Shown here: positions 1,229 to 22,652 of the stretch, one piece after another
Numbering within the stretch: the stretch's first letter is position 1
Layout of the letters: the number at the start of each line of letters is the position of its first letter
Assembly (NCBI RefSeq): GCF_002998435.1
Contig: NZ_CP027231.1
Span: 2,211,001 to 2,275,000, forward strand
DNA length: 64,000 bases
Reading direction: 5' to 3'
Origin: Bacteroides zoogleoformans
GTDB lineage: Bacteria; Bacteroidota; Bacteroidia; Bacteroidales; Bacteroidaceae
The notes under the pieces: generated by a model
Seen by the model: the letters and a program-made list of their open reading frames with translations, nothing else
Database searches by the model: none
What the model was told of the DNA's origin: nothing
Position numbers and translations under genes: made by a program

Positions 1229-2488
1229 TCATCTCTTTGCCGGCAGGCAGGAGCCTGATGCTTTTTTATAGTACAATACGATGGTGTTGGAATTTCGGAA
1301 TGTACGCTGCGCTACGGCGTGGATTTGTTCCGCAGTGACAGAACGATAGCTGTCCACTTCACGGTCTATGTCTTCCGCCTGTCCGGTCAGTTCGAACCAG
1401 GTAAGGTTCGTGGCCACGTTCAGATAATTGATGTTCCCGAATATCTGGGTAGCTTCGAACTTGTTCTTCACTTTTTCCAGTTCCCGCTCGTCTACCGGTT
1501 GCCGTTTCAACTCTTCCAATTCGTGGCGGACAGCTTCTTCGGCCTGTTCCAATGAAACGCCGGCTGAAGGTTTGCCGCTGATGTGCAGCAGTCCCGCATC
1601 GCGCGAACCGGAGATGTATGCGTCGAGTGTGGAAAACAGCTTCCGCTCCTGCACCAGTCGGCGGTTCAGGCGACTGGAACGCCCGTTGCTTAGAATATCG
1701 GACAAGATGTCGAACGCATAATAATCGATTCCTTCGCGACCGCACATGGGATAAGCCATGAACAGTGCGTCGAGGGGGACATTGCGTTCCACCGTCTGTC
1801 GCCGCTCTTCCGTTTGCTGAGGTTCCTGCGGCAGTTGCCTTACAGTGACGTTCCTCCGCGGAATAGAGGCAAACCACTTCTCGGTCAGTCTGAGGGTTTC
1901 TTCCCAGGAAATATTCCCGGTGACGGCCAGCACGGCATTGTTAGGGGCATAGAAACGGTAGAAGAACGACTTCACTTCGTCCAGTGTGGCATTGGCAATG
2001 TGAGAAAGTTCCTTGCCGATGGTAGGCCAACGGTAGGGATGCACCCGATAGGCCAACGGGCGAAGCAGATGCCCCACGTCGCCATACGGCTGGTTCAGGC
2101 AACGCTGCTTGAACTCTTCCATCACCACTCCCCGCTGCACGTTGAGGCTTTGCTCGCTGAATGCCAACTCCAGCATGCGGTCGGACTCTAACCAGAAGGC
2201 CGTCTCCACGTTCTGTTTGGGGACGGTCAGGTAGTAGTTGGTGATGTCGTTGTTCGTCCATGCGTTGTTCTCGCCGCCCGCCAGTTGCAGCGGCGTGTCG
2301 TAGTCGGGGATGTGCACCGACCCTCCAAACATCAGATGCTCGAACAGATGGGCAAAGCCCGTGTGTTCGGGATGCTCGTCGCGGGCACCCACGTCGTAGA
2401 CTATGTTCAGCGCTACCATCTGCGTGCCGGCGTCTTCGTGGTGCACCAGCCGCAGTCCGTTGTCCAATGTCTTTTTATTAATCTTCAA
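1229..2488 (-). CDS. M16-family zinc metallopeptidase (insulinase-like)
   Basis: The 419-aa protein carries the inverted zinc motif HxxEH as HLFEH at residues 47-51, with the third ligand Glu expected in VVMEEF near residue 124. M16 peptidases clamp and degrade short unfolded peptides. Its length equals one M16 half (active plus inactive lobe), so it may act as a homodimer or with another M16 subunit. No signal peptide is evident, implying a cytoplasmic location, although periplasmic relatives exist. Its ATG overlaps the end of the upstream cyclophilin gene by 11 nt, so the two are probably translated from one mRNA as a proteostasis pair. Confidence 0.92.
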   Translation of the reverse strand: MKINKKTLDNGLRLVHHEDAGTQMVALNIVYDVGARDEHPEHTGFAHLFEHLMFGGSVHIPDYDTPLQLAGGENNAWTNNDITNYYLTVPKQNVETAFWLESDRMLELAFSEQSLNVQRGVVMEEFKQRCLNQPYGDVGHLLRPLAYRVHPYRWPTIGKELSHIANATLDEVKSFFYRFYAPNNAVLAVTGNISWEETLRLTEKWFASIPRRNVTVRQLPQEPQQTEERRQTVERNVPLDALFMAYPMCGREGIDYYAFDILSDILSNGRSSRLNRRLVQERKLFSTLDAYISGSRDAGLLHISGKPSAGVSLEQAEEAVRHELEELKRQPVDERELEKVKNKFEATQIFGNINYLNVATNLTWFELTGQAEDIDREVDSYRSVTAEQIHAVAQRTFRNSNTIVLYYKKASGSCLPAKR

Positions 2489-3320
2489 GGAGGGTCACTT
2501 TCTTAATCACGACATCCTCTTCGGGACGGTCGCTGCGGTCGGTCTTTACTTTCTGTATCTTGTCCACTACCTCCATGCCCTCCAGTACTTCGCCGAACAC
2601 GGTGTACTGACCGTCCAGATGAGGCGTTCCGCCCACTGTGGTATAAGCCTTTATCTGTTCGGGCGTGAACTTGAATTCCGGCTCTTTGGCCACCTGTGCT
2701 TCGGCCTGAGCAAACAGAGAGTCCTGCAAGTTCATCAAGCCATCTTGGTCATTCTCCCTGCGCATCTTATAGATTTCCTTCATGTGTTTTTGGGCTAAGG
2801 CATTGAAAGCGTTGTTCAGACGCATTTGGTTCATCTGCTGCTCCATGTTCAGCAGGGCGGAATCGCCATAAACCTTGCCGGTCACGATGTAGAACTGGCA
2901 ACCGGAAGACTCCTTCTTCGGGTTCACCTCATCGCCCTGACGCGCGGCGGACAAAGCCCCTTTCTTATGGAAGTAGCGGGGATAGACAAATTCGGCGGGA
3001 AGGGTATAGCCCACGTCTCCCGATCCCAGCATCTTGCCCTTGGGGGCTTTCTTCGACTCAGGGTCTCCGGCCTGTATCATAAAGTCTTTGATGACACGAT
3101 GAAACAGCGTCCCCTCGTAAGTACCCTCTTCTGCCAGCTTGATAAAATTGTCACGGTGTTTCGGCGTCTCGTTATAGAGTTTCACAACGATGTCGCCTGC
3201 ACTTGTCTCAATCTTCAACTTTGTTTCCTTTTCCATATTCAGGTTTTTCTTTTGTCCCGGTTTGCAGGCTGCCAGCCCGCCCACCAGTATGATTAGTAAT
3301 ACAATAACATTTCTTTTCAT
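2478..3320 (-). CDS. Cyclophilin-type peptidyl-prolyl isomerase lipoprotein
   Basis: The 280-aa protein starts with a lipoprotein signal (MKRNVIVLLIILVGGLAAC, Cys19), so it is envelope-anchored. The cyclophilin domain begins with LKIETSAGDIVVKLY, and the catalytic stretch FHRVIKDFMIQAGDP contains the conserved Arg. A Gln/Met/Lys-rich helical insertion (about residues 150-210) splits the domain before the final GQYTVFGEVLEGMEVVDKI; this insertion is usual in Bacteroides homologues. It catalyses cis-trans prolyl isomerization of exported proteins. A TATATTTG -7 box reading this way lies at 3346-3353. The M16 peptidase follows with an 11-nt overlap. Confidence 0.93.
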   Translation of the reverse strand: MKRNVIVLLIILVGGLAACKPGQKKNLNMEKETKLKIETSAGDIVVKLYNETPKHRDNFIKLAEEGTYEGTLFHRVIKDFMIQAGDPESKKAPKGKMLGSGDVGYTLPAEFVYPRYFHKKGALSAARQGDEVNPKKESSGCQFYIVTGKVYGDSALLNMEQQMNQMRLNNAFNALAQKHMKEIYKMRRENDQDGLMNLQDSLFAQAEAQVAKEPEFKFTPEQIKAYTTVGGTPHLDGQYTVFGEVLEGMEVVDKIQKVKTDRSDRPEEDVVIKKVTLLED

Positions 3321-3374
3321 TTGCTTCTCTTTTAATTAAAGTCCGCAAATATACGACTTTCACACAAAAGCGCT

Positions 3375-3596
3375 TACATTTGTGGTGCTAAAAGAAACAA
3401 AACACAGGGACTATGACATCCATAATCAATCGTAGAAGATGATGTAACTTGCAGCATGGGTGCAAGTGTCAACATGGGGTTAAGAGCCACACATTCAAGT
3501 CGGTGGCAAGTATGGGCATAGCCATAAATAGGTATCGTTCTCCTCGATTATCGGTGCAATCCCACCTCCTCCGGTCAAGAAATACCTATTTTTAGT
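3375..3596 (+). ncRNA. Candidate structured non-coding RNA (unassigned)
   Basis: The 335-nt gap between 3320 and 3656 has no convincing ORF but much structure. A -7 box TACATTTG sits at 3375-3382 in a context very like the promoter at 46405. Behind it come four inverted repeats: ACTTGCA/TGCAAGT (3447-3467), GCCAC/GTGGC (3486-3507), TATGG/CCATA (3511-3526) and AAATAGGTAT/ATACCTATTT (3526-3591), the last running into TTTTAG. The receptor gene has its own promoter downstream at 3599-3629, so this is not obviously its leader. I recognise no known riboswitch. It may be a small RNA or only a protein-binding region. Confidence 0.3.
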
Positions 3597-3655: not shown

Positions 3656-6427
3656 ATGCCGAAAAAGTCGTTCCTCATAAGTCATTTACTATTCATCTGT
3701 ATCCTCTGCTCAGCACAATCATCCCATAGTTTCAGCGGTCGCGTCTTCGATGCTCAAAGCAAGGATGTATTGCCTTTCGCCACGATACGGCTGAAGTCCG
3801 ATGCGGGCAAGTTCTACGGAACCACCAGCGATGCGGACGGCAAGTTCGGCATTCGGGGGCTGGGGACGGGAAATTACCTGCTCATCGTCTCTTACATAGG
3901 ATATGAAACGCAGGAAAAAAACATTCGGATAGACGGAGACATCTATCGGGACTTCCGGCTGTTGCCTTCGTCCACCACGCTGAACGAGGTGGTAGTCACC
4001 GCCTCCGAATCGAAAGGCATCACCAGCGCTTCGAAGATAGACCGCACGGCCATGGAGCACCTGCAACCCTCCAGCTTCACCGACCTGCTGGCGTTGCTGC
4101 CGGGCGGAAGCACAAGCACGCCGAACATGAGCGGGGCCAACATCATCCACCTGCGCGAAGTGGGGACAGGCGATTCGGACTACAGCACCGGGTCTTTGGG
4201 CACACAATTCGTGATAGACGGCATACCCGTCAGCACCGCCTCCAACATGCAACGCGTCGCCTCGGACATCACGGCCTCTTTCGACGGATACAATGCCGTG
4301 AACGCCGGCGTGGATATGCGTAACATCCCCACCGACAACATCGAAAGCGTGGAAATCGTCCGGGGAATTCCCTCCGTGCAATACAACAACCTGACAAACG
4401 GAGTAGTCATCATCAAACGCAAGCTGAAAGCCACCCCGCTGGAAACGCGCTTCAAGGCCGACCAAAGCAGCAAGCTCTTTTCGGCCAACAAAGGCATGGA
4501 GTGGAAGAGTAGGGACATGGGGCTTTCGGTCGATATCGACTTTCTGAATGCGCAGAACGACCCGCGCGACCGTTACGACTTGTACAAGCGAATCACCACC
4601 TCCGCGCGTTTCCATAAGAAATGGACATTGCGCGACGGACATGCCTTGAAGTGGCAAACCGGCGTAAGCTATTCCGGAAACATAGACCACGTGAAGAACG
4701 ACCCCGATATAGAGAGGCTGACGGAAGAGAGCTACCGTTCCGGCTTCCACAGCGGAAAGTGGCACAGCCTGCTGGAATGGATGGCGCCCAGAGGGAAAGC
4801 CTTCCGGAAATTGGAGCTGGACCTCTCTGCCGGCATGTCGTGGGACGAGATAAAACGCGCACGGTTCATGCATCTGGACCGCGATTGGGCGGTGCCCACC
4901 CATACGAAGGCGGGTGAACACGACGCGGAGATACTGCCCTACAAATACACTGCCCATACCACGGTAGACGGCAAGCCGATGAACTTATACGCCAAGCTGG
5001 CCGCCGAGTTCGGGATGCAGACCGGTTTGGCGGGCCACAAGCTGCTGGTCGGAAGCACCTTCAGGTACGACAAGAACTTCGGAGGCGGACAGATCTACGA
5101 CCCCGCACGTCCGCTCGACCCCGGAAGCGCTTTCCTGCGCCCGCGCAAATACAGCGACATTCCTGCCTCCGAGCTGTGGCATGTGTATGTAGAAGACAAT
5201 GTCAACATCCCCATAGGAAGGCATTCCTTGGAAGTGCAAGCCGGGATAAACGGCAACATGATGCTGAACCTCGACAAGCGGTACGCCTTGAGCGGAAAGA
5301 TGTACCTCGACCCGCGCATCAACGTGCAGTGGAGATTTCCGGGCATCGGCTTCAGGGGAAAGACGTTGGTAATAAGACTGGGCGGAGGCATGGGCCGGCT
5401 GTTGTTGATGCCTACCCTTTCGCAACTCCATCCGAACAACATCTACATGGACTTCACGCAGCTGAACTATTGGCACGCCAATCCCGCATACAAGCGCATC
5501 AACTTGCGCACTTACATCGTGAACCCCACCAACTACGACCTGAGGCCTGCCCGTAACTTCAAGCAGGAAGTGCGTCTGAGTCTGGATTACGGCAGAAACA
5601 CGCTTTCCGTCACTTATTTCCACGAACGGATGAATTCCGGCTTCCGCCATATTCCGACCTATTCTCCGTACGAATACAAGGTGTACGACTCCAGCAAGAT
5701 AGACGGCTCCGCACTGACTGCCCCACCGGCTTTGGAAGACATGCCTTATGAGATGAGAACCATCTTGAGAGGCTACTCCTACACCGGAAACGGCAGCCGC
5801 ACACAGAAAGAGGGAGTGGAGTTCCAGTTATCTACCGAACGCTTCAAGGCACTCAATACCCGCTTCACCGTGAACGGGGCTTGGCTGTACACCATCTACG
5901 AGAACAGCCAGCCCATAGCCAAAAGCGTTTCCGCGGTAGTAAACGGCGTAGCTCTGAGCGACAAGTACGTGGGCATCTACGAAACGGACGACAGTTCTCA
6001 CTACGGGCAGTTCAACACCAACTTCACGGTAGATACCTATCTGAAGGAATTAGGCCTGACCCTTTCCGCCACTTCGGAGTGCATGTGGTTTCAAAGCAGG
6101 CAGAACCCCAGAGCAAGCGGCACTCCCATCGCCTACATGGATGCCGCCACAGGAAAGGTTTCGCCCTACACCGAGGAAGACAAAAAGGATACTTACAAGC
6201 AGCACTTGGTCATTGCTCGTTCCTCGGCCTTGGCAGAGAAGACAACCACACCTTTCTATATGTACGTCAACTTCAAAGCCACCAAAGAGTTCGGCAAGAA
6301 TATGTCCATCGCACTTTTCGCCAACCGTATTCTGGACTATGTGCCCGACTACACGCGAAACGGATACCTCATACGAAGAACAGCAGCCAGTCCTTATTTC
6401 GGGATGGAGCTGAAACTTAAACTATAA
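3656..6427 (+). CDS. TonB-dependent outer-membrane receptor
   Basis: About 923 aa from ATG 3656, which is followed directly by a signal peptide (MPKKSFLISHLLFICILCSA). Then comes a carboxypeptidase-regulatory-like domain (GRVFDAQ...TTSDADGKF, about residues 25-110), a plug domain (LNEVVVTASESKG to NGVVIIKRK) and a long beta-barrel ending in MELKLKL. It is shorter than SusC transporters and has no SusD partner, so it resembles receptors for metal chelates, cobalamin or peptides more than glycan importers. TonB receptors take up ligands across the outer membrane using proton-motive force. It opens a cluster of eight collinear genes; the DUF4876 lipoprotein follows after 31 nt. The ligand cannot be deduced from sequence. 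Confidence 0.93.
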   Translation: MPKKSFLISHLLFICILCSAQSSHSFSGRVFDAQSKDVLPFATIRLKSDAGKFYGTTSDADGKFGIRGLGTGNYLLIVSYIGYETQEKNIRIDGDIYRDFRLLPSSTTLNEVVVTASESKGITSASKIDRTAMEHLQPSSFTDLLALLPGGSTSTPNMSGANIIHLREVGTGDSDYSTGSLGTQFVIDGIPVSTASNMQRVASDITASFDGYNAVNAGVDMRNIPTDNIESVEIVRGIPSVQYNNLTNGVVIIKRKLKATPLETRFKADQSSKLFSANKGMEWKSRDMGLSVDIDFLNAQNDPRDRYDLYKRITTSARFHKKWTLRDGHALKWQTGVSYSGNIDHVKNDPDIERLTEESYRSGFHSGKWHSLLEWMAPRGKAFRKLELDLSAGMSWDEIKRARFMHLDRDWAVPTHTKAGEHDAEILPYKYTAHTTVDGKPMNLYAKLAAEFGMQTGLAGHKLLVGSTFRYDKNFGGGQIYDPARPLDPGSAFLRPRKYSDIPASELWHVYVEDNVNIPIGRHSLEVQAGINGNMMLNLDKRYALSGKMYLDPRINVQWRFPGIGFRGKTLVIRLGGGMGRLLLMPTLSQLHPNNIYMDFTQLNYWHANPAYKRINLRTYIVNPTNYDLRPARNFKQEVRLSLDYGRNTLSVTYFHERMNSGFRHIPTYSPYEYKVYDSSKIDGSALTAPPALEDMPYEMRTILRGYSYTGNGSRTQKEGVEFQLSTERFKALNTRFTVNGAWLYTIYENSQPIAKSVSAVVNGVALSDKYVGIYETDDSSHYGQFNTNFTVDTYLKELGLTLSATSECMWFQSRQNPRASGTPIAYMDAATGKVSPYTEEDKKDTYKQHLVIARSSALAEKTTTPFYMYVNFKATKEFGKNMSIALFANRILDYVPDYTRNGYLIRRTAASPYFGMELKLKL

Positions 6428-13442: not shown

Positions 13443-13530
13443 AACGTTTCCCTGAAAGGGCGATGGATGCCGAAAGCTCACACTCACTTTCGCTGTTGCA
13501 TATCGCCCGTGTAAGGGAAACGTTTATTTT
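13443..13530 (+). terminator. Long compound hairpin ending the cluster
   Basis: Nested stems AACGTTTCCCT/AGGGAAACGTT (13443-13453 with 13514-13524) and GGGCGAT/ATCGCCC (13458-13464 with 13502-13508) enclose a smaller GAAAG/CTTTC stem, and the outer stem is followed by TATTTTTG. It lies 32 nt after the DUF4857 stop and fits a terminator. It is far larger than most, so a structured RNA or a protein-binding site is also possible. Confidence 0.6.
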
Positions 13531-13561: not shown

Positions 13562-14647
13562 ATGATCTATTTTTTACCAAGTTTTAGGCAGGCGGGCCAT
13601 ACAATTGAGCCCGGCATAGAGCAACCTGCCGGGAAAAAACGGAAGCCGGTTCCGATGCTTTCCGTTTGTGCCGAGCAGGCACCCCGTGGCGTAAGTCGTT
13701 CCACGGCGGAAAATTACCGTACGGCAGTGCGCTCCTTCATCCGCTTCTGCGGCAACACAGATGTCCCCGTATCGGCGCTCAACGCCGACAATGTGCGCCG
13801 CTACGAGCGTTGGCTGCAAGACCGTGGCGTATGCCCCAACACCTCCTCGTGCTACATGCGCTCCTTGCGCGCCATCCACAACAAAGCGGCCTCGAAGCGG
13901 CTCGTGAAGGACAGGAAGCCCTTCAAGGGCGTGTTCACGGGCAACTCTCCCACGGTGAAGCGCGGCATCACCACAGGGGAGTTGCGCAGGCTCAAAAGCC
14001 TCTCCCCCGCAGGAGGCGGGGCAGAGGCCGGGGAAGCCGGGAGGAAGCGGACAGCCGTGGAGGCTGCGGCCCTGGACTTCTTCCTCTTCTCGTTCTACGC
14101 CATGGGCATGCCCTTCGCGGACCTGGCCGGCCTCCGGCGCCCGCAGGTCAGGGACGGGGTGCTTACCTACCGGCGGCGCAAGACCGGCCGGCAGGTCAGG
14201 GTGACGCTGGAACCCTGCATGCTCGACATACTGGACAAGTATGCGACGCGGGAGTCGGACTACCTCTTTCCCATATTATATAAGATGAAAGGCGGTGAGA
14301 AAGACCGGACGAAAGGCGGTGATACGGACAAGGGGAAAGACGGCGGTAAGGGCAGGACGAAACGTGGAAATCCTGTGGAAGTCTCCTACTCCTCGGCGCT
14401 GAACCGCTACAACCGCGCGCTCAAGACCCTTGCCCGTGAGGCGGGAATAGCGGTGAACCTGACCTCCTACGTCGCCCGCCACTCCTGGGCGAGCATCGCC
14501 TACGAGGGGAACGTCGACCTGCCCGTCATCTCCAAGGCATTGGGGCATACCGACACCAAGACGACACTCATATACATCGGGGAGATAAACGACACGCGGC
14601 CGGCATCGGCCAACCGCAAACTGCTGGAAGAGGTTTTCCCGTCCTGA
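13562..14647 (+). CDS. Tyrosine site-specific recombinase (probable fimbrial-switch invertase)
   Basis: 361 aa with a SAM-like core-binding N-terminus (RSTAENYRTAVRSFIRFCGN) and a C-terminal catalytic domain with ARHSWAS (box II), LGHTDTKTTLIY (box II His and nucleophile Tyr) and a conventional tail. Where many relatives carry the first catalytic Arg (FYTRGMSF) this protein reads FYAMGMPF, so that Arg seems displaced or absent. Two low-complexity insertions are present: KSLSPAGGGAEAGEAG, encoded by a copy of the dispersed GC-rich repeat, and a Lys/Gly/Asp-rich stretch at 14277-14375. The gene sits 50 nt before a 23-bp inverted-repeat-bounded segment in front of a fimbrial operon, so its likely job is to invert that segment. 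It could instead be an integrase of a decayed element. Confidence 0.85.
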   Translation: MIYFLPSFRQAGHTIEPGIEQPAGKKRKPVPMLSVCAEQAPRGVSRSTAENYRTAVRSFIRFCGNTDVPVSALNADNVRRYERWLQDRGVCPNTSSCYMRSLRAIHNKAASKRLVKDRKPFKGVFTGNSPTVKRGITTGELRRLKSLSPAGGGAEAGEAGRKRTAVEAAALDFFLFSFYAMGMPFADLAGLRRPQVRDGVLTYRRRKTGRQVRVTLEPCMLDILDKYATRESDYLFPILYKMKGGEKDRTKGGDTDKGKDGGKGRTKRGNPVEVSYSSALNRYNRALKTLAREAGIAVNLTSYVARHSWASIAYEGNVDLPVISKALGHTDTKTTLIYIGEINDTRPASANRKLLEEVFPS

Positions 14648-14697: not shown

Positions 14698-14961
14698 CAC
14701 ACCTCTTGGCAAGAGGTGTGACCCCTCCCGTAACTGCCTGCAAATAAAAGGCTTTTATTTAATATATACAAATATTTGTGAGAAAAAATGCATCCCCGCC
14801 CCGTGCAAACGACTGCACCGTGATGTTTACAACCCCAGGTCCGGCCCTCCTGCCGCAAGAGGCCGGAACCTGCCGGCCGTCCCGCCTTTCCTTCCCTTTC
14901 CCCCGAGTGGAAATTTCCTTATGCCTTTTCCCGTCCCCCACACCTCTTGCCAAGAGGTGTG
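14698..14961. repeat. Invertible segment bounded by 23-bp inverted repeats
   Basis: The sites at 14698-14720 and 14939-14961 each consist of 11-bp arms CACACCTCTTG and CAAGAGGTGTG around one central base, G in the left site and C in the right, making the two sites exact inverted copies. They enclose 218 bp of non-coding DNA carrying one good promoter. The 420-nt gap between 14647 and 15068 otherwise holds no gene. The position between a tyrosine recombinase and a fimbrillin operon matches known Bacteroides DNA-inversion switches. Confidence 0.82.
14741..14772 (-). promoter_or_regulatory. Promoter inside the invertible segment, facing away from the fimbrial genes
   Basis: On the minus strand, TTTG (14769-14772) is followed after 20 nt by TTTATTTG (14741-14748), a 7-of-8 fit to the -7 consensus as positioned by the TTTG. 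No comparable pair reads rightward. The present orientation therefore looks OFF for the downstream DUF3575/DUF5119/fimbrillin genes; inversion would point it at the gene at 15068. Confidence 0.6.
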
Positions 14962-15067: not shown

Positions 15068-16342
15068 ATGAAAAAGATGTATAACCCTTATTCACAGGCA
15101 ATGAAAAGACCCTTCCTCCTCCTGCTTTTCCTGCTTTCCCTGGGGCATTCCCGGGGACAGGAATCCGACTTCCGCCGCGGCACGGATTCCGTGCGCGTCT
15201 ATTTCCGTCAGGGCGAATCGCGCCTCGACCCCTATTTCCGTGAGAACGGCGCGCGCGTTCGCGCCTTCACCGAACGTTTCAGTGCCCTGCTCCGGGACCC
15301 CTCGCGGCGCATACGGGGCCTGCGGGTCACCGCAGGCGCCTCCCCCGAGGGAAGCACGGCATTGAACCAGCGTCTCTCCGAGCGGAGGGCCGAGGCCATC
15401 CGGCAGCTGGTCTCCGGCTACTTCCCCCATGAGTTCGGGTGGCTCTCCACCGTGCCCAAGGGCGTGGACTGGCAGGGACTGGAAAAGCTCGTGCTGGCGG
15501 ACGAATACATGCCTTACCGCCACGAAGTGCTCGACATCCTCCGTTACACCCCCGAGTGGGTCACCGCCGGCGGCAAGGTGGCCGACGGCCGCAAGCGCCG
15601 TCTGGCCATGGCGGGCGGGGGCTACGCCTGGCGCTACATGGAGAGCCGCTTCTTCCCCGAGCTGCGCGCCTCCACCCTGCACGTGTGGTACGAGACAGAG
15701 GAGGCGCAACAGGCCGTGAAGGACACCGTCTACATCCTCCCGCCCGAACAGGCTGAGGCCGTACCAGCGCCGCAGGATCGCAGACCTTTCTACATGGCGC
15801 TGAAGACCAACCTGCTCTATGACGCCCTCGCCGTTCCCAACATCGGGCTGGAGTTCTACTTGGGCCGCGGCTGGTCGGTAGCCGGCAACTGGATGTACAC
15901 CTGGCTCAAGAGCGACAGCCGCCACCGTTACCACCGCATCTATGGCGGCGACCTCGAGCTCCGCCGCTGGCTGAGCTACGGCAAGAAGCCGCTGACCGGG
16001 CACCACATAGGGCTTTACGGCCAGCTGCTGACCTACGACTTAGAGTGGGGCGGCAAGGGCTATCTGGGCGACCGCTGGAGCTACGGGGGCGGCATCGCCT
16101 ACGGCTACTCCGCCCCCATCGGACGCAGGCTGAACCTCGACTTCAGCATCGGCATCGGCTACTTGGGCGGCGAATACTTCGAGTACATCCCCAAGGGATG
16201 GTGCGAGACCCACCGGAAAGAGTGCTACCTGTGGCAGGCCACCCGGCAGCGCCGCTGGTTCGGCCCCACCAAGGCCGAGGTGTCGCTGGTATGGCTGCTG
16301 GGACATGATAACGTAAACACGAAGAAAGGAGGCAAACGATGA
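15068..16342 (+). CDS. DUF3575 domain protein with OmpA-like N-terminal domain
   Basis: 424 aa from ATG 15068; an in-frame ATG at 15101 (MKRPFLLLLFLLSLGHSRGQ) gives a cleaner signal peptide and may be the true start. Residues about 30-150 resemble an OmpA-type domain (VYFRQGESRLDPYF and GASPEGSTALNQRLSERRAE). The C-terminal DUF3575 region (ALKTNLLYDALAVPNIGLEF to SLVWLLGHDN) looks like an outer-membrane barrel. In Bacteroidales fimbrial loci this family accompanies fimbrillins and probably helps anchor or assemble them. It overlaps the DUF5119 gene by 4 nt (ATGA), so it is the first gene of an operon controlled by the invertible segment. Confidence 0.85.
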   Translation: MKKMYNPYSQAMKRPFLLLLFLLSLGHSRGQESDFRRGTDSVRVYFRQGESRLDPYFRENGARVRAFTERFSALLRDPSRRIRGLRVTAGASPEGSTALNQRLSERRAEAIRQLVSGYFPHEFGWLSTVPKGVDWQGLEKLVLADEYMPYRHEVLDILRYTPEWVTAGGKVADGRKRRLAMAGGGYAWRYMESRFFPELRASTLHVWYETEEAQQAVKDTVYILPPEQAEAVPAPQDRRPFYMALKTNLLYDALAVPNIGLEFYLGRGWSVAGNWMYTWLKSDSRHRYHRIYGGDLELRRWLSYGKKPLTGHHIGLYGQLLTYDLEWGGKGYLGDRWSYGGGIAYGYSAPIGRRLNLDFSIGIGYLGGEYFEYIPKGWCETHRKECYLWQATRQRRWFGPTKAEVSLVWLLGHDNVNTKKGGKR

Positions 16343-17388
16343 AAACCGAGAATATGATGAAAACCGGAAGACACCCGCTCACGTCCCGCCCGCTGCGGGC
16401 CCTCGGCACCGCGGGCGCCGCCGTAGCGCTGACACTCTGCGCGGCCCTGATTGCCGCGCTCATCACCGGCACACTCTCATCCTGCGACCACAAGACTTTC
16501 TGCGACCCCGAGCCGGCCGTGTCGAAGGTGCATGTCGTCTTCGACTGGCGCAAGGCTCCCGGAGCGGCCGTCACCGGCATGAGCCTCTATCTCTATCCCA
16601 CGGCCGGCGGTGAGATGCTGCGCTACGACTTCGACAACGCCCTTGGCGGCGTGGTGGAGATCCCTCCCGGCAACTACCGGGCCCTGTTCCTGAACAACGA
16701 CACGGAGACCACGCTGCTGCGCGGCACCGACGCCTACGGAACCTTCGAGGCCTACACCCGTCCCTCCTACCTGCTCGAGCCGCTTGGCATACAGAGCAGC
16801 CCGTCGGAGGCCAACCCCACGGGCGAGGAGGTGGCACTGCCCACAGACCCCGTATGGGGCGGCCGGGACGGGGCTGTGGAGGTGCCCGCGGCAAAGGCCG
16901 TCGGCGAGGGGGCATACGACCATCAGCTGACGTTCTATCCCGAGCGGGAGACCTCGCGCTACACGGTGGAGGTGCGTAACGCCGAGAACCTGCGCTACGT
17001 GTCGGCCCTGAGCTTCTCCCTGTCGGGGCTGTCGGGCAGCATGGCCCTGGCTTCCGACGCCCGCTCGCCGCTACGCACCACCATCCCGTTCGAGGGGCGC
17101 ACCAACGCCGACGCCGGCACCGCCACGGGCCATTTCCACGCCTTCGGCCTCCCGTCCTCGGGCAACAAGCTGCGCACGCTGGTGATATACGTCATCCTCA
17201 CGGACGGGAGCAAGCAGTTCTACTCGTTCGACGTGAGCGGCCAGGTGAACGACGCCCCCGACCCCCTGAACGTGCGCATAGTGATAGACGGGCTGAAGCT
17301 GCCACACCCCATAGTGGAGCCGGGAGGGGGAGGTTTCCAACCCTCTGTGGACGACTGGGTGGGCGAGACGATAGAGATGGAGATGTAG
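16339..17388 (+). CDS. DUF5119 lipoprotein, fimbrial-locus component
   Basis: 349 aa with an unusually long signal: a charged stretch of about 15 residues, then AVALTLCAALIAALITGTLS and the lipobox Cys (SSCDHK). The mature protein has strands typical of fimbrillin-related sandwiches (VHVVFDWRKAPGAAVTGMSL, VEIPPGNYRALFLNND). DUF5119 proteins are Mfa2/FimB-like partners of fimbrillins in Bacteroides and are thought to act as anchors or minor subunits. The start overlaps the preceding stop (ATGA). High GC and strong codon bias match the flanking fimbrial genes. Its role is inferred from locus structure. Confidence 0.82.
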   Translation: MKTENMMKTGRHPLTSRPLRALGTAGAAVALTLCAALIAALITGTLSSCDHKTFCDPEPAVSKVHVVFDWRKAPGAAVTGMSLYLYPTAGGEMLRYDFDNALGGVVEIPPGNYRALFLNNDTETTLLRGTDAYGTFEAYTRPSYLLEPLGIQSSPSEANPTGEEVALPTDPVWGGRDGAVEVPAAKAVGEGAYDHQLTFYPERETSRYTVEVRNAENLRYVSALSFSLSGLSGSMALASDARSPLRTTIPFEGRTNADAGTATGHFHAFGLPSSGNKLRTLVIYVILTDGSKQFYSFDVSGQVNDAPDPLNVRIVIDGLKLPHPIVEPGGGGFQPSVDDWVGETIEMEM

Positions 17389-17413: not shown

Positions 17414-17494
17414 TCAGGTGTCAGGTATCAGGTGTCAGGTATCAGGTGTCAGGTATCAGACGTAAAACCTAAAAGACCTAAAAGACATAAAAGA
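17414..17494. repeat. Short tandem repeats upstream of the main fimbrillin gene
   Basis: Six 7-bp units alternate TCAGGTG and TCAGGTA (17414-17455, period 14). A few bases later come three 9-bp units CCTAAAAGA, CCTAAAAGA, CATAAAAGA (17468-17494). They lie 107 nt or more before the fimbrillin start in an intergenic gap of 213 nt. Confidence 0.85.
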
Positions 17495-17601: not shown

Positions 17602-18705
17602 ATGAAAAAGAATGTATTGTTTTTAGCTGCGGGCCTGCTGGCGTTCGCCTCCTGCTCGCAGGACGAGACCACGGGTCTGGACAAGGGCGGCGCCATCAAG
17701 TTCCGCCCCAACGTGGGCAACGTGACGCGCGGCCCCATCATCACCACGAGCAACATCGCGGCCTTCAAGGTGAGCGCGTCCATCGCGGCCGCCCCCGCCA
17801 ACTTCTTCACCGACCTGCAGGTGAACAAGGCCGGTACCGTGTGGAACACCGCTCAGACCTATTACTGGCCCGGCACGGGCACACTGCGCTTCTTCGCCTA
17901 TGCTCCGGTGGACGTGACCACCGTGGCCATAACCCCCGGGGCGCAGACCATCAACAACTTCTCGCCGACGGCCGCCGTAGCCTCCCAGAAAGACGTGGTA
18001 GTGGCCTACAATACCGGCACGAAGGCCGCCAACGAGGCGAGCGGCGTGGCGCTGACCTTCAAGCACATCCTCTCGCAGATCGAGGTGAAGGCCGAGATGG
18101 ACGCCGCCGCCGTTGGAAGCTATGAAATTAAGGTATTGGGCACGAAACTGGGACGCATCCCATCCACGGCGAACTTCACCTTCCCCGCCTCGGTGGTAAC
18201 GGGTACGCTGCCGCAAAGCCAGTGGTCCGCCGCCGCCACTCCGGCGGACTACGGCACGATGCTGGACGCCGCCGCCACACTGACGGCCGCCGCTCAGAAA
18301 GTCACCAAGGACAACTTCCTGATGATTCCGCAGCAGCTGACCAAGTGGACGGGAGGAAACACGGCCGACGGCGCCTACATCGCCGTGCTTTGCCAGATCT
18401 CGAGCAAGAACGGGGGAAACACCACGCAGATCTTCCCCAAGGTGTCGGGCAAGTACGCCTACGCCGCCGTGCCGGTGAACACCAACTGGCTGCCGGGCAA
18501 GAAGTACACCTACAAGCTGAAGTTCTTGGGCAGCGGCGGCGCCGGACACGTAGATCCGAACCAGACCAACCCGGACGATCCGAGCGACCCGAACGTGGAC
18601 ACCACGCAGAACAACGGCGGTGACCCCGTATTGGGCGGTGCCATCAAGTTCACCGTGACGGTTGAGGACTGGGACGAGCTGGCCGAGGAGGAAATAAGCC
18701 TGTAA
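17602..18705 (+). CDS. Fimbrillin family protein (probable major or stalk subunit)
   Basis: 367 aa with a lipoprotein signal (LLAFASCSQDE). An early NVTRG sequence (about residue 36) fits the Arg-specific processing site of FimA/Mfa-type pilins, where cleavage frees a strand-exchange groove. Typical fimbrillin blocks follow (YYWPGTGTLRFFAYAP; FKHILSQIEVKAE; GKYAYAAVPVNTNWLPGKKY), and the C-terminus AIKFTVTVEDWDE is the usual end of Bacteroidales fimbrillins. It would be exported as a lipoprotein, cleaved at the surface and polymerized. It follows the DUF5119 gene by 213 nt containing short tandem repeats and an AT-rich leader, so it may have its own promoter as well. Confidence 0.88.
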   Translation: MKKNVLFLAAGLLAFASCSQDETTGLDKGGAIKFRPNVGNVTRGPIITTSNIAAFKVSASIAAAPANFFTDLQVNKAGTVWNTAQTYYWPGTGTLRFFAYAPVDVTTVAITPGAQTINNFSPTAAVASQKDVVVAYNTGTKAANEASGVALTFKHILSQIEVKAEMDAAAVGSYEIKVLGTKLGRIPSTANFTFPASVVTGTLPQSQWSAAATPADYGTMLDAAATLTAAAQKVTKDNFLMIPQQLTKWTGGNTADGAYIAVLCQISSKNGGNTTQIFPKVSGKYAYAAVPVNTNWLPGKKYTYKLKFLGSGGAGHVDPNQTNPDDPSDPNVDTTQNNGGDPVLGGAIKFTVTVEDWDELAEEEISL

Positions 18706-18912: not shown

Positions 18913-21696
18913 ATGAGAACTATGAGATTTATTCGCCCGGTCACGACCTCCCGGCTGCTGTCGGGCGTTGTGCTTGCGCTTCTGTCCGCGCTGCTGTTTG
19001 CGGCCTGCTCGGACGAGGAAGACGGCGGAGGCCTGCGGGGCAGGACCATCGGGTTTGAAATGACCGCACCGCAAGGGGCGGAGGAGACCGGTACGAAAGG
19101 AGCCGCCACCCGGGCGGCGGCCGACACCCTGCCACGGGTGGAGATAACCGCCATTGAGGGAACCACCGACGAAGAGGGAAGACAGCTGTACCTGCACACG
19201 CTCACGGAAGAGGACATGGCGGCAGATGACGCAAGGGAGGCCGATGCCGGCGTTGCCGGGGAAAGCGGCGGCGCAACCACCAAGGCGGCACCGGTGACTA
19301 CCGCCACCATGCACGCCGACGCCACGGTGTTCGCCGCCGTGTACCCGTCCGCCGACACGTGGAACAACACCGTTGCCCCTAACTACTTCTTCGACACGCA
19401 GGTGAAGAAGTCGGAAAGCTGGGCGACGACCTACTACTGGCCGGGCACGAACAAGCGGGTGGCGTTTTTCGCCTACGCCCCTCACCACTGCGCGGGCGTT
19501 ACCCTGACCACGGGCATCGCCACGCCCGGAGCACCGGCATTCAGCTACACCGTTCCGGCGGCCGTGGCCGCCCAGACCGACCTGCTGACGGCCTCGTCGG
19601 TGGACGTGGCGGGCGTGCTGCATGCGCCGGCGCCGCTGACATTCAGGCACGCGCTGACGGCCGTGCGCTTCGAGACGGGCAACCCGCTCCTGCCGGGGAC
19701 GGTGACCAAGATAACCCTCAAGGGGGTGTACGGTACGGCGACGCACCGCATAGGGGAAAGCACATGGAGCGGGTACTCGGGCACAAAGGATTTCGCGCAG
19801 ACGCTTGCCGTGGTGACGCCCGACCCTAATGTGGCGGGAACGGAGATTACACAGCCGTCGGCCACGTTCATGATGCTGCCGCAGACGCTGCCCGCGAATG
19901 CGAAGATAGAGGTGGTCTACACCGACAAGCTGACGAACATGCAGCGCACGCTCACGGCAAGCATAGCCGGTAAGGTGTGGGGCATGGGCAAGACTGTGAC
20001 ATACCGCATCAGCACAAACAGCATCGTGGTGACGCCTATACTGACGGTGACGCCCCCGGCGGACTTTGAGTACACGGGCGGCATGAAAGGCTACACGGTG
20101 ACAAGCTACCTGGAGGTGACACGCCCGGGAGACCCGACAAAGACCGTACCTGCCCCGTGGACGGTGGAGTACTCCACGGACAACGGGCTGAACTGGAGCA
20201 ATACTAGACCGGCGTGGCTCATGTCCTTCACCGAAAGCGGCGCGGGCGGAACCTCGCCCTCTACATACACCGCCACCGTGGCGGCACAGGTGAACAGCGC
20301 CTCGGCCAACCCGCACACCGAAGCACTGAAGAATGCCTCACCGGTGAACGACGGGACAAACACCAACATATACGACCTCTCCACCCACGACGGGCAAGGA
20401 AACATCGCCCCCATGCGTACGGCCAACTGCTACATAGTGAACGCCGCCGGGAGGTATAAATTGCCGCTGGTGTACGGAAATGCCGTGGATTACGTCAAGG
20501 TGCCCGGCACGGGCAACAACACTTCCGCTTACACATCTACGGCAAGCGGAGGCAATGTGCTGAAGCCGTTTATCAACCACCGAGGAGCAGGTATTACCTC
20601 CCCGTATATTTACAACAATGCAAACTGCACTCCCGATAACTGCACGCTCATCTGGCAGGACGAGCCGAACCTTGTTACGAACGTGGCCCTCTCTTCCGAC
20701 GGGCACTACCTCGAGTTTACTGTGGGGCAGGCCACCATTCACCAAGGCAACGCCGTGGTGGCGGTGCGCAACGCATCGAACACCGTGCTGTGGAGCTGGC
20801 ACATCTGGGTGACGGACTACAAGCCCGGAACAACGGGAACAGCCACACCCGACAAGGAAATAACCAACCACCAGGGTAAACATTATAAGATTATGACCGT
20901 CAACCTCGGTTGGTGCGACGGAAAGGAGGAGACCTACGCCGAACGCACCGTACAAGTACGCTTCAAGCAGAAGCCTACGGCAGGATACACGCCGGCGGCG
21001 ACACAAACCATCACAGTGAAACAGAAAGCGCATACCATTGCGGAACTTGGGAACAATACCTACTTCCAGTGGGGACGCAAAGACCCGTTCGTGGGGGGTA
21101 TACTCGACGGCTCCACAATGAAGAATAAGACATGGTATGATGCATTGGGGACATCCCACACCGACGAGCTTCCTCCGACAAGCAACTTCTCATACAATAA
21201 TGCCTGCATCACCTCAGGCATCACCCGGCCTAACACGTACTGTACGAATTATTACATGGATTATAAATACGCCAACCTCTGGAGTGCAAACAACACCATT
21301 TATACAAATAACGACAACCCTGTTGTAAAGACCATCTACGACCCTTGCCCCGCAGGCTACAAAATGCCTCCGGGCAATGTTTACACCGGTTTTACTACAA
21401 CGGGACAATACGCGGGCTACTCGTCACAATTCAATGTGCAAGGACCTTGGGACAACGGTTGGAACTTCTATTGCGACCCAAGTAAGACCCAAACCGTCTT
21501 TTTCCCTGCGTCGGGCTATCGGGCCAGCAATTCCGCAGTGCCCATCTTCGTGGGGAGCTACGGCTACTGTTGGTCGGCGGGGCCGAGCAACACGTACTAC
21601 GGGAGGTACCTGCACTTCTGCCTGGGCTACGTGCACCCGCTGAGCAGCAACGTATTTCGGAGCAACGGCTACGGGGTGAGGGCGGCCCAAGAATAA
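18913..21696 (+). CDS. Fimbrillin family protein with FISUMP-like C-terminal domain (probable tip adhesin)
   Basis: 927 aa with a lipoprotein signal (LSALLFAACSDEED). The N-terminal half is fimbrillin-like (ATTYYWPGTNKRVAFFAYAP; FRHALTAVRFETGN; VWGMGKTVTYRI). The middle is a set of beta-sandwich segments (residues about 375-640). The C-terminal third has the features of a Fib_succ_major/FISUMP module: NNTYFQWGRKDPF, a DPCPAGYKMPPG block, FFPASGYRA and the closing GYGVRAAQE. Such long multi-domain fimbrillins cap the pilus and bind host or microbial ligands. It lies 207 nt after the shorter fimbrillin gene. Codon use turns less GC-rich in the last 700 nt, suggesting the C-terminal domain was acquired by exchange. 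Confidence 0.85.
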   Translation: MRTMRFIRPVTTSRLLSGVVLALLSALLFAACSDEEDGGGLRGRTIGFEMTAPQGAEETGTKGAATRAAADTLPRVEITAIEGTTDEEGRQLYLHTLTEEDMAADDAREADAGVAGESGGATTKAAPVTTATMHADATVFAAVYPSADTWNNTVAPNYFFDTQVKKSESWATTYYWPGTNKRVAFFAYAPHHCAGVTLTTGIATPGAPAFSYTVPAAVAAQTDLLTASSVDVAGVLHAPAPLTFRHALTAVRFETGNPLLPGTVTKITLKGVYGTATHRIGESTWSGYSGTKDFAQTLAVVTPDPNVAGTEITQPSATFMMLPQTLPANAKIEVVYTDKLTNMQRTLTASIAGKVWGMGKTVTYRISTNSIVVTPILTVTPPADFEYTGGMKGYTVTSYLEVTRPGDPTKTVPAPWTVEYSTDNGLNWSNTRPAWLMSFTESGAGGTSPSTYTATVAAQVNSASANPHTEALKNASPVNDGTNTNIYDLSTHDGQGNIAPMRTANCYIVNAAGRYKLPLVYGNAVDYVKVPGTGNNTSAYTSTASGGNVLKPFINHRGAGITSPYIYNNANCTPDNCTLIWQDEPNLVTNVALSSDGHYLEFTVGQATIHQGNAVVAVRNASNTVLWSWHIWVTDYKPGTTGTATPDKEITNHQGKHYKIMTVNLGWCDGKEETYAERTVQVRFKQKPTAGYTPAATQTITVKQKAHTIAELGNNTYFQWGRKDPFVGGILDGSTMKNKTWYDALGTSHTDELPPTSNFSYNNACITSGITRPNTYCTNYYMDYKYANLWSANNTIYTNNDNPVVKTIYDPCPAGYKMPPGNVYTGFTTTGQYAGYSSQFNVQGPWDNGWNFYCDPSKTQTVFFPASGYRASNSAVPIFVGSYGYCWSAGPSNTYYGRYLHFCLGYVHPLSSNVFRSNGYGVRAAQE

Positions 21697-22112: not shown

Positions 22113-22652
22113 ATGAGTGTAAATTACAAATTAGTGCGGAAGAAAAATCCGCAAAAGAAAAGCGAACCTGCCAAATGGTATGCCACGCCCAACAGCGCAA
22201 AACCGTTGGCGCAGAAAGCCATGACCCGTGCCGCCACGGAGAACACCACCACGGCGCCCATCGAGATGGAGGCCGCCATGGAGCTGCTGGCAGCATTCAT
22301 CCCGCAACAGCTTCAGCAGGGTCACACGGTGAACGTGCCCGGAATGGGTACATTCCGCCTCACCTTCAAGAGTGAGGGCGTGGAAGACATCGACAAGTTC
22401 AATGCCGGGCAGATGATAAAATCGCCCCGCATCGTCTTCACCCCCGCCAAAGAACTGCGTGAGAGAACTCTGCAAGGCATCAGCTACGAGAACGGCGGCG
22501 TACTGGAAAACAAAATCAACTACGCCTCGCTGGCGGACTACCGCAAAGCGAAAGGGATTCCCGAACCTACGCCCGGCGGCACAGGCGGTAGCGGCACGGG
22601 CGGCGGTACTCCCGGCGGCTCGGGCGGCCAAGGAGAGAATCCGCTTGGTTAG
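22113..22652 (+). CDS. HU-family DNA-binding protein with Gly-rich tail
   Basis: 179 aa. Residues about 5-125 match the long HU-HIG type of Bacteroidales histone-like proteins (MSVNYKLVRKKNPQKKSEP; VNVPGMGTFRLTFKSEGVED; IKSPRIVFTPAKELRERT). A Gly/Thr/Ser-rich unstructured tail (PGGTGGSGTGGG) follows. These proteins bend DNA and occur in many copies in Bacteroides, often next to mobile or surface loci. The gene is preceded by an AT-rich leader with AGGAGA before the ATG and, farther up, five palindromic iterons that it or a regulator could bind. Family assignment is strong; its target is unknown. Confidence 0.88.
   Translation: MSVNYKLVRKKNPQKKSEPAKWYATPNSAKPLAQKAMTRAATENTTTAPIEMEAAMELLAAFIPQQLQQGHTVNVPGMGTFRLTFKSEGVEDIDKFNAGQMIKSPRIVFTPAKELRERTLQGISYENGGVLENKINYASLADYRKAKGIPEPTPGGTGGSGTGGGTPGGSGGQGENPLG

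Follow-up and report, generated by a model that had tools for sequence, protein, structure and literature searches.

In Bacteroides zoogleoformans, a tyrosine recombinase gene is followed by two short palindromic sites and then by a fimbrial operon, and the question raised by this locus is whether the DNA between the sites is a switch and, if so, in which state it stands in the assembly and what keeps it apart from its likes in the same genome. The stretch of DNA that was analysed, 64,000 nucleotides long, is referred to here as the window. Our reading, held with high confidence on the sequence evidence, is that the 264-bp element bounded by the two sites would act as an ON/OFF promoter switch for a type V fimbrial operon and be inverted by a recombinase. 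The features of the window that are relevant to this reading are as follows:

13562..14647, plus strand: tyrosine recombinase of 361 aa, probable invertase (Pfam PF13102, 3.7e-15; PF00589, 2.9e-12)
14698..14720, plus strand: recombinase-proximal site, arms CACACCTCTT/AAGAGGTGTG, core GGC at 14708-14710
14721..14938, no strand: promoter segment between the sites in apparent OFF orientation, its inversion suggested by sister loci
14741..14772, minus strand: Bacteroides-type promoter TTTG-N20-TTTATTTG, predicted to fire toward the recombinase
14939..14961, minus strand: fimbriae-proximal site, inverted copy, core GCC on the plus strand (GGC on the minus strand) at 14949-14951
15068..16342, plus strand: operon gene 1, DUF3575, weakly OmpA-like (PF12099, 3.4e-39; PF00691 below its cut-off)
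16339..17388, plus strand: DUF5119, weakly Mfa2-like, probable anchor or accessory pilin (PF17145, 1.3e-46; PF08842, 5.7e-4, below its cut-off)
17602..18705, plus strand: fimbrillin-like protein (PF13149, Mfa_like_1, 3.7e-22)
18913..21696, plus strand: 927-aa protein conserved in the operon, possible tip pilin or adhesin
22113..22652, plus strand: HU-HIG DNA-binding protein at the cassette end (PF18291, 4.1e-22)

The bounding sites at 14698-14720 (CACACCTCTTGGCAAGAGGTGTG) and 14939-14961 (CACACCTCTTGCCAAGAGGTGTG) are inverted copies of each other at 23 of 23 positions, with 218 bp between them and 264 bp in total. This confirmed the coordinates given in the initial annotation, which had described two inverted 23-bp sites bounding a 264-bp segment with a recombinase gene 50 nt to the left. 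The first site is separated from the end of the recombinase ORF (14647) by 50 bp, and the second from the start of the type V fimbrial operon (15068) by 106 bp. Each 23-bp site is a palindrome except for its central base, and when the pair is read on one strand it differs only there. A search of the 3.36-Mb genome at up to 3 mismatches returned 9 sites, all of them within four loci that each contain a paralogous recombinase, and the reversed control pattern returned 0 sites at the same tolerance over the whole genome, so the site pair of the window is beyond chance. A fifth locus at 1813 kb, with a single site that has one mismatch and no pair, was treated as a chance match. The four loci of the genome (3,361,794 bases, one contig) are of like build, with recombinase, sites, and fimbrial operon, and are located at 94 kb (core GCG), at 1285 kb and 1684 kb (both with core GGT and three sites), and at 2225 kb, which is the locus in the window (core GGC, two sites). 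The switch predicted in the window is one of a family and does not stand alone.

The promoter between the sites lies on the minus strand, with a -33 TTTG at 14769-14772, a 20-bp spacer, and a -7 box TTTATTTG at 14741-14748. It had earlier been called a good promoter facing the recombinase; its position and direction hold, but it is not perfect, as the -7 box has 5 of the 6 fixed letters of TAnnTTTG and is one letter off the consensus. An exact TAnnTTTG is absent from both strands between 14648 and 15067, and no fimbriae-facing match was scored in the promoter scan of the window segment. Because the only scored promoter points at the recombinase and none points at the operon, the operon looks OFF in the assembly. 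The arrangement proposed in the initial annotation, an invertible promoter with a tyrosine recombinase and a fimbrial operon in an apparent OFF state, is supported by the sequence. In the mechanism that we propose, the adjacent recombinase would bind the conserved palindromic arms (CCTCTT/AAGAGG and outward), and strand exchange within the short core would invert the promoter segment; we infer both that the adjacent recombinase is the agent and that the segment in the window itself flips. In the present orientation the promoter would fire into the 3′ end of the recombinase gene, with the operon OFF. Inversion would place it ∼24 bp ahead of the right-hand 15-bp site, directed into the DUF3575-DUF5119-Mfa-927-aa operon. 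Transcripts made in this ON state would contain the site close to their 5′ end, as a 10-bp stem whose three-base loop is the core. As a conjecture from geometry alone, OFF-state antisense transcription over the recombinase gene might feed back on switching.

In the operon, a fimbrillin-like gene and an Mfa2/DUF5119-type gene are found together, which by sequence assigns it to type V (Mfa/Fim). The 927-aa protein, presumed to form the pilus tip, matched no family at standard thresholds and none convincingly at a loose one, and it has homologues in the three paralogous operons (57-72%). The HU-HIG gene closes the cassette in all four loci of the genome (window, L005, L006, and L007), and its product might help to bend the DNA of the switch, or might control the operon. 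A perfect 14-bp tandem repeat (3.3 copies of TCAGGTGTCAGGTA) is located at 17414-17459, between the DUF5119 and fimbrillin genes, where a second, slippage-type tuning is possible.

The recombinase in the window has an intact ORF with a SAM-like core-binding domain and a Phage_integrase catalytic domain, and three paralogues with 71-72% identity adjoin the other three site sets of the genome. Its Pfam search gave no match to an arm-binding family. The AlphaFold2 model (mean pLDDT 75) was compared with known folds, and IntI4, XerA, lambda integrase, Tn1549 Int, and Cre were found among the best 50 rows, with modest query TM-scores of 0.37-0.53. By domain content and residues it belongs to the simple type of tyrosine recombinases (Xer/Cre-like, with no arm-binding domain and a C-terminal Tyr). 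Tyr338, Arg306, His307, and His329 are invariant among 17 aligned sequences. At the position of the canonical first catalytic arginine there is a proline, so that GLR becomes GMP in the alignment to XerC-like 4a8e. Proline occupies the Arg I position in 17 of 17 aligned relatives, a set that was found in part with the motif FYAMGMP and is hence biased, and arginine was seen there in 0 of 91 readable proteins (121 including the query, 30 of which were unreadable). Relatives share the loss, and the idea of a recombinase disabled by it as a peculiarity of the window copy was rejected. Passages of PMC8138268 describe IntDOT-type enzymes in which another arginine does the work of the first, and the missing arginine is probably a known kind of variation, with a substitute arginine possible by analogy. 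Within the gene, a 24-bp repeat (3.2 copies, 71% matches) at 14287-14362 overlaps low-confidence model residues 243-267, and the paralogues differ in length there.

Relatives of the switch were sought in other genomes. The strict 17-bp site ACCTCTTNNNAAGAGGT is present in 10 of 399 family genomes; at least two such sites in close inverted sets were found in G000, G096, G315, and G492, and the other six genomes have a lone site. In a like draw of 399 genomes, recombinase relatives at E ≤ 1e-60 were found in the same four genomes and in no other, with up to five candidates scored per genome and the listing comprising the genomes with a match and the first without. The chance that three genomes would coincide, leaving out G000 as the source of the pattern, is about one in ten million by hand calculation. 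Sites and recombinase go together, as far as these sequences extend. In a scan of named genomes, 24 recombinase relatives were found, and a strict CCTCTT-NNN-AAGAGG pair lies just after the recombinase in 9 of them: five in Bacteroides heparinolyticus and one each in Phocaeicola abscessus, Prevotella illustrans, a Prevotellaceae bacterium, and Prevotella brunnea. The strict pair is absent from the other 15 loci (L068-L082). Among these, two similar loci of Xylanibacter caecicola (L069 and L070) have a degenerate pair and a recombinase-facing TACTTTTG, read by eye, and L078 has a different repeat in three copies; the repeated palindromes of L077 look like dispersed repeats and were discarded. 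Weaker recombinase relatives (E ≤ 1e-30) occur in 32 of 60 genus genomes, own genome included. Because a CCTCT-N5-AGAGG pair was found in only two (L031 and L047) of the 29 such loci that were examined (L030-L058), most of these recombinases, at 34-47% identity, appear to use other sites. The looser 15-mer CCTCTTNNNAAGAGG was matched in at least 61 of the 158 genus genomes, the matches listed being for the most part lone sites, and its reversed control is also common. Four lone ACA-core sites (L142-L145), for which the 10 kb examined contain no recombinase relative, were taken as chance.

Sixteen loci of the family were thus assembled: four from the own genome, nine from named genomes, and three more (in G315, in G492, and L128 of G096, which looks like the same B. 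heparinolyticus assembly as that of the named-genome loci, L128 being its extra locus). The initial annotation had counted absence of the sites from homologous fimbrial loci with the same recombinase as evidence against a switch; instead, site pairs accompany all four paralogous recombinases, and relatives add 12 loci. Twelve of the 16 lead into a DUF3575-type operon, and in L059 and L064 the contig end cuts the DUF3575 gene itself. The cargo is a 909-aa fimbrillin-like protein in L126, a 609-aa protein without a family in L066, and in L065 of Prevotella illustrans (1478-3556, core GGG) a BspA-type leucine-rich-repeat protein instead of fimbriae; L127, near a contig end, is the sixteenth locus and lies outside the cargo assignments. 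The promoter scan (TTG, an 18-22-bp spacer, and at least 5 of 6 fixed -7 letters) scored a promoter in 13 of the 16 loci, in each of which the spacer measures 20 bp and the distance to the 15-bp site 23-26 bp. Twelve face the recombinase and one (L061) faces the fimbriae, counts that refer to single assemblies of non-independent loci. An additional weaker match was present in L067, and nothing was scored in L126, L127, and L128, in which the recombinase-facing elements TAAATTTG, TAACTTTG, and a poorer TTAATTCG, respectively, were read by eye. In shuffled segments, a match anywhere on one strand arose in 9% of trials.

When the sites of the 16 loci are compared, the consensus is CCTCTT-NNN-AAGAGG, and it is the three-base core that distinguishes them. 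Since the arm pattern served to collect the loci, invariant inner arms are no result in themselves; core matching played no part in the choice. Six cores occur (GGC, GCG, GGT, GCT, ACG, and GGG), and the core is identical within the promoter-flanking pair in 16 of 16 loci. At 10 or more bases from the core, within-pair identity does not exceed 9 of 16 at any position. None of 200,000 reshuffles of the distal cores among the loci matched all 16 (the maximum was 14), a result that is no clean probability, as many loci are paralogues. Since near-identical recombinase genes adjoin different cores (L059 and L060, 95% nucleotide identity, GGC and GCT; L061 and L062, 93.5%, GCT and GCG), the recombinase does not set the core; the genes of L061 and L063 are 89.5% identical, with cores GCT and ACG. 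In tyrosine recombinases in general, partner sites must pair within the strand-exchange overlap, and the core here is probably this overlap, with the arms as the protein-bound part. Passages of PMC10850332 report that engineered loxPsym spacers show the same pairing requirement. The initial annotation had described each site as an 11-1-11 palindrome whose polarity depends on a single base. This is true of core GGC, found in 4 of 16 loci (window, L059, L066, and L067), but not as a design of the family, since the other five cores differ from their own reverse complement at all three positions. Read from the recombinase, the first core base is G in 15 of 16 loci and A in the other one, a regularity that breaks down in the distant loci L137, L140, and L141.

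Footprints of flipping are present at sister loci. The 1285-kb and 1684-kb loci (L006 and L007) are inverted duplicates, 94-97% identical over ∼9.6 kb and located ∼399 kb apart, and the two differ in the side of the promoter segment on which their mini-segment (sites 68 bp apart, start to start) is found. When the 1684-kb sequence is inverted between sites 1 and 3 and then between the new sites 1 and 2, the arrangement of the 1285-kb locus is obtained, with 776 of 800 positions identical and 0 gaps. Left as it is, the 1684-kb sequence gives 708 matches and 136 gap columns; with only the first inversion there are 664 matches and 78 gap columns, and with only an inversion between sites 2 and 3 there are 616 matches and 116 gap columns. 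The simplest account of these sequences is two site-specific inversions since the duplication. The GGT pair L006/L007 might also serve as the hinge on which a large part of the chromosome inverts. L061 of B. heparinolyticus (GCT, three sites) has a promoter segment that matches other loci in reverse at either end. Because these end-specific matches and the promoter scan agree on an inverted promoter, L061 would be a switch caught ON, with its promoter facing the fimbrial genes. Whole-region identity is 506/939 with an inversion between S1 and S3, 506/915 with one between S2 and S3, and 485/938 as is; the correspondence of mini-segments between L061 and the own loci was judged by eye. The initial annotation had proposed a search of related genomes for the opposite orientation, which is borne out by the inverted L061 and the rearranged 1285/1684-kb pair but not by the sister-species orthologue L059, in which a segment of 98% identity stands in the OFF orientation too.

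Extra sites are a feature of several loci. Six of the 16 have three or four strict sites, and the extra sites, where they could be read through, are 34-68 bp from their neighbour, start to start. L128 has four sites, and a short mini-segment (sites 45 bp apart) is present in inverted copies on both sides, as judged by eye. RNA folding of the mini-segments gave stems that derive from the sites and no clear terminator or riboswitch. A shufflon was considered and rejected: the extra sites lie between genes, and the locus in the window has two sites.

Two side observations concern the DNA before the recombinase gene. L059 has additional DNA that separates the DUF4857 region from the orthologous recombinase gene, and within it lies an Abi_2-family gene (4703-5608; Pfam PF07751, 1.6e-52) that is absent at that place in the window. 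In the window, an imperfect inverted repeat of 18 bp with 46 bp between its halves (13443-13524) lies just upstream of the recombinase gene, partly at the junction where L059 has the extra DNA, and its region folds strongly as RNA.

These results bear on three other explanations of the element. Recombination might delete or excise the segment instead of, or besides, inverting it, with the sites acting as direct repeats. They do align in this manner at 27 of 29 positions with flanks because each is near-palindromic, and symmetric Cre-loxPsym spacers are described in passages of PMC10850332 as giving stochastic deletion or inversion. However, none of the four GGC loci (window, L059, L066, and L067) has lost a site or the promoter, and where relatives are seen rearranged it is by inversion, which leaves excision improbable. 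We regard as quite improbable a degenerate, locked switch, with relic sites, an inactive recombinase, and an operon that is either silent for good or transcribed from elsewhere: the recombinase has an intact ORF, the loss of the arginine is subfamily-wide and hence not decay, inversion footprints lie beside paralogues with the same residue, and arm identity is kept at 23 of 23 positions, against which stand the OFF state common to the own genome and L059 and the proline at the Arg I position. It is highly improbable that the palindromes are operators or 5′ mRNA hairpins regulating the fimbrial operon and not recombination sites, as this would leave unexplained both the core differences between loci with a match within each pair and the site-exact rearrangement, even though each site folds as RNA to -13.5 kcal/mol (10-bp stem, core as a 3-nt loop), would come ∼24 bp after the -7 box once the segment is ON, and has a counterpart in B. 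fragilis, where, in passages of PMC4747536, the number of inverted repeats from promoter to gene is reported to be inversely related to expression. A hairpin or operator role may exist in addition to recombination.

A wider circle of loci enlarges the family and adds caution, and it changes none of the above odds. Four further inverted pairs lie beside recombinases that are only 32-40% identical: L137 and L139 (both G018), L140 (G173), and L141 (G032). They were drawn from the list of looser 15-mers and from a CCTCT-N5-AGAGG scan of recombinase loci, with a core match as a condition of finding, and so are no test of the core rule. The core of L139 spans five bases (GTACA), which suggests an overlap wider than three bases; this locus leads to NusG-like and UDP-sugar dehydrogenase genes, a polysaccharide-type locus. 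In L137 (4640-5814) and L140 (4491-5548), a segment of 1.0-1.2 kb between matched inverted sites contains an AraC-type regulator gene, with a recombinase adjoining and DUF3575 genes downstream, and these would be invertible regulators instead of bare promoters. An exact TAnnTTTG is found in L140 at 23 bp from a site, facing the recombinase, and in L141 at 17 bp from the other site, facing away from the recombinase as in an ON state; none is present inside the L137 and L139 segments. The L141 pair has one mismatch, and the next listed downstream gene is of malic-enzyme type. In G023, the locus L138 (4126-5876) has three close 15-mer palindromes, CCCCCTCTT-NNN-AAGAGGGGG, with matched cores, located between unrelated genes and surrounding a formyltransferase and a DUF559 gene. 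It has no recombinase relative in the 6.1 kb examined and was rejected as a switch, being likely a set of dispersed palindromic repeats. Because L138 has matched cores without a recombinase relative, matched cores alone are no proof of a switch.

With the recombinase-inverted promoter as the preferred reading, the matched cores lend themselves to a tentative proposal, to which we give somewhat less than even weight. The core might be a natural address code: the paralogous switches of one cell, for fimbriae and other surface molecules, have their arms in common, so that any recombinase copy could act on each of them, with matched cores confining recombination to the single switch. Loci with the same core would then be coupled: they could exchange promoters or operons, and the GGT pair could invert the intervening 0.4 Mb; outer extra sites would add graded ON states; and the module would be portable to other cargo, as with the BspA-type leucine-rich-repeat protein in Prevotella illustrans. 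Such a code would not be fully private, because some loci in one genome have equal cores (GGT twice in the own genome; GCT twice and GCG twice in B. heparinolyticus). Strand exchange and repair could also produce matched cores as a side effect. With natural switches that differ mainly in a short core, how a cell keeps similar sites apart would become directly testable, and the set would offer paired natural sites and one small recombinase for work in Bacteroides.

The element can be placed among known switches. In E. coli fimS, a short intergenic invertible fimbrial promoter is served by two recombinases, FimB and FimE. The element in the window is similarly short and intergenic with an adjoining tyrosine recombinase, whereas the fimbriae and promoter class differ, fimS has two recombinases, and OFF-state antisense control is a conjecture here. 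Another is a phase-variable outer surface protein locus of B. fragilis with local tyrosine recombinases and an invertible promoter, reportedly described by Weinacht et al. in 2004, which has in common with ours a local tyrosine recombinase and an invertible promoter before type V pilin-like genes. For the Tsr19/BF2766 system of B. fragilis (IVp-I and IVp-II), passages of PMC4747536 describe a tyrosine recombinase gene beside an invertible TAnnTTTG promoter, an IVp-I that is OFF-biased in culture and has extra inverted repeats between promoter and operon, and a single recombinase, Tsr19, that inverts two promoters of polysaccharide and outer-membrane genes, one of them local and the other distant. 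The adjoining recombinase, the invertible promoter, and, at multi-site loci of the family, the extra inverted repeats are alike, whereas each fimbrial locus here has its own recombinase copy, with common arms and mainly the core triplet varying. If the multi-site loci behave like IVp-I, site number would be linked to expression level. Orthogonal loxPsym sites engineered for Cre, in which, according to passages of PMC10850332, constant arms are combined with a variable spacer that decides partners and symmetry loosens polarity, resemble the present sites in arms and core; in contrast, the set here is natural, its core has three bases (five in one distant locus), and there is a recombinase copy per locus. 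Gut inverton groups, described in part of PMC11892184, include promoter invertons that regulate fimbrillin genes in Bacteroidota; they too lie next to fimbrillin genes, but are grouped by inverted-repeat homology in gut strains. No published description of the CCTCTT-NNN-AAGAGG site family was found in the open-licence literature. Passages of PMC12632263, PMC5903667, and PMC11892184 describe phase-variable fimbriae in Bacteroides together with invertible promoters and tyrosine recombinases. In summary, invertible fimbrial promoters in Bacteroides are already known, and the newer part would be the set of switches with shared arms and matched cores.
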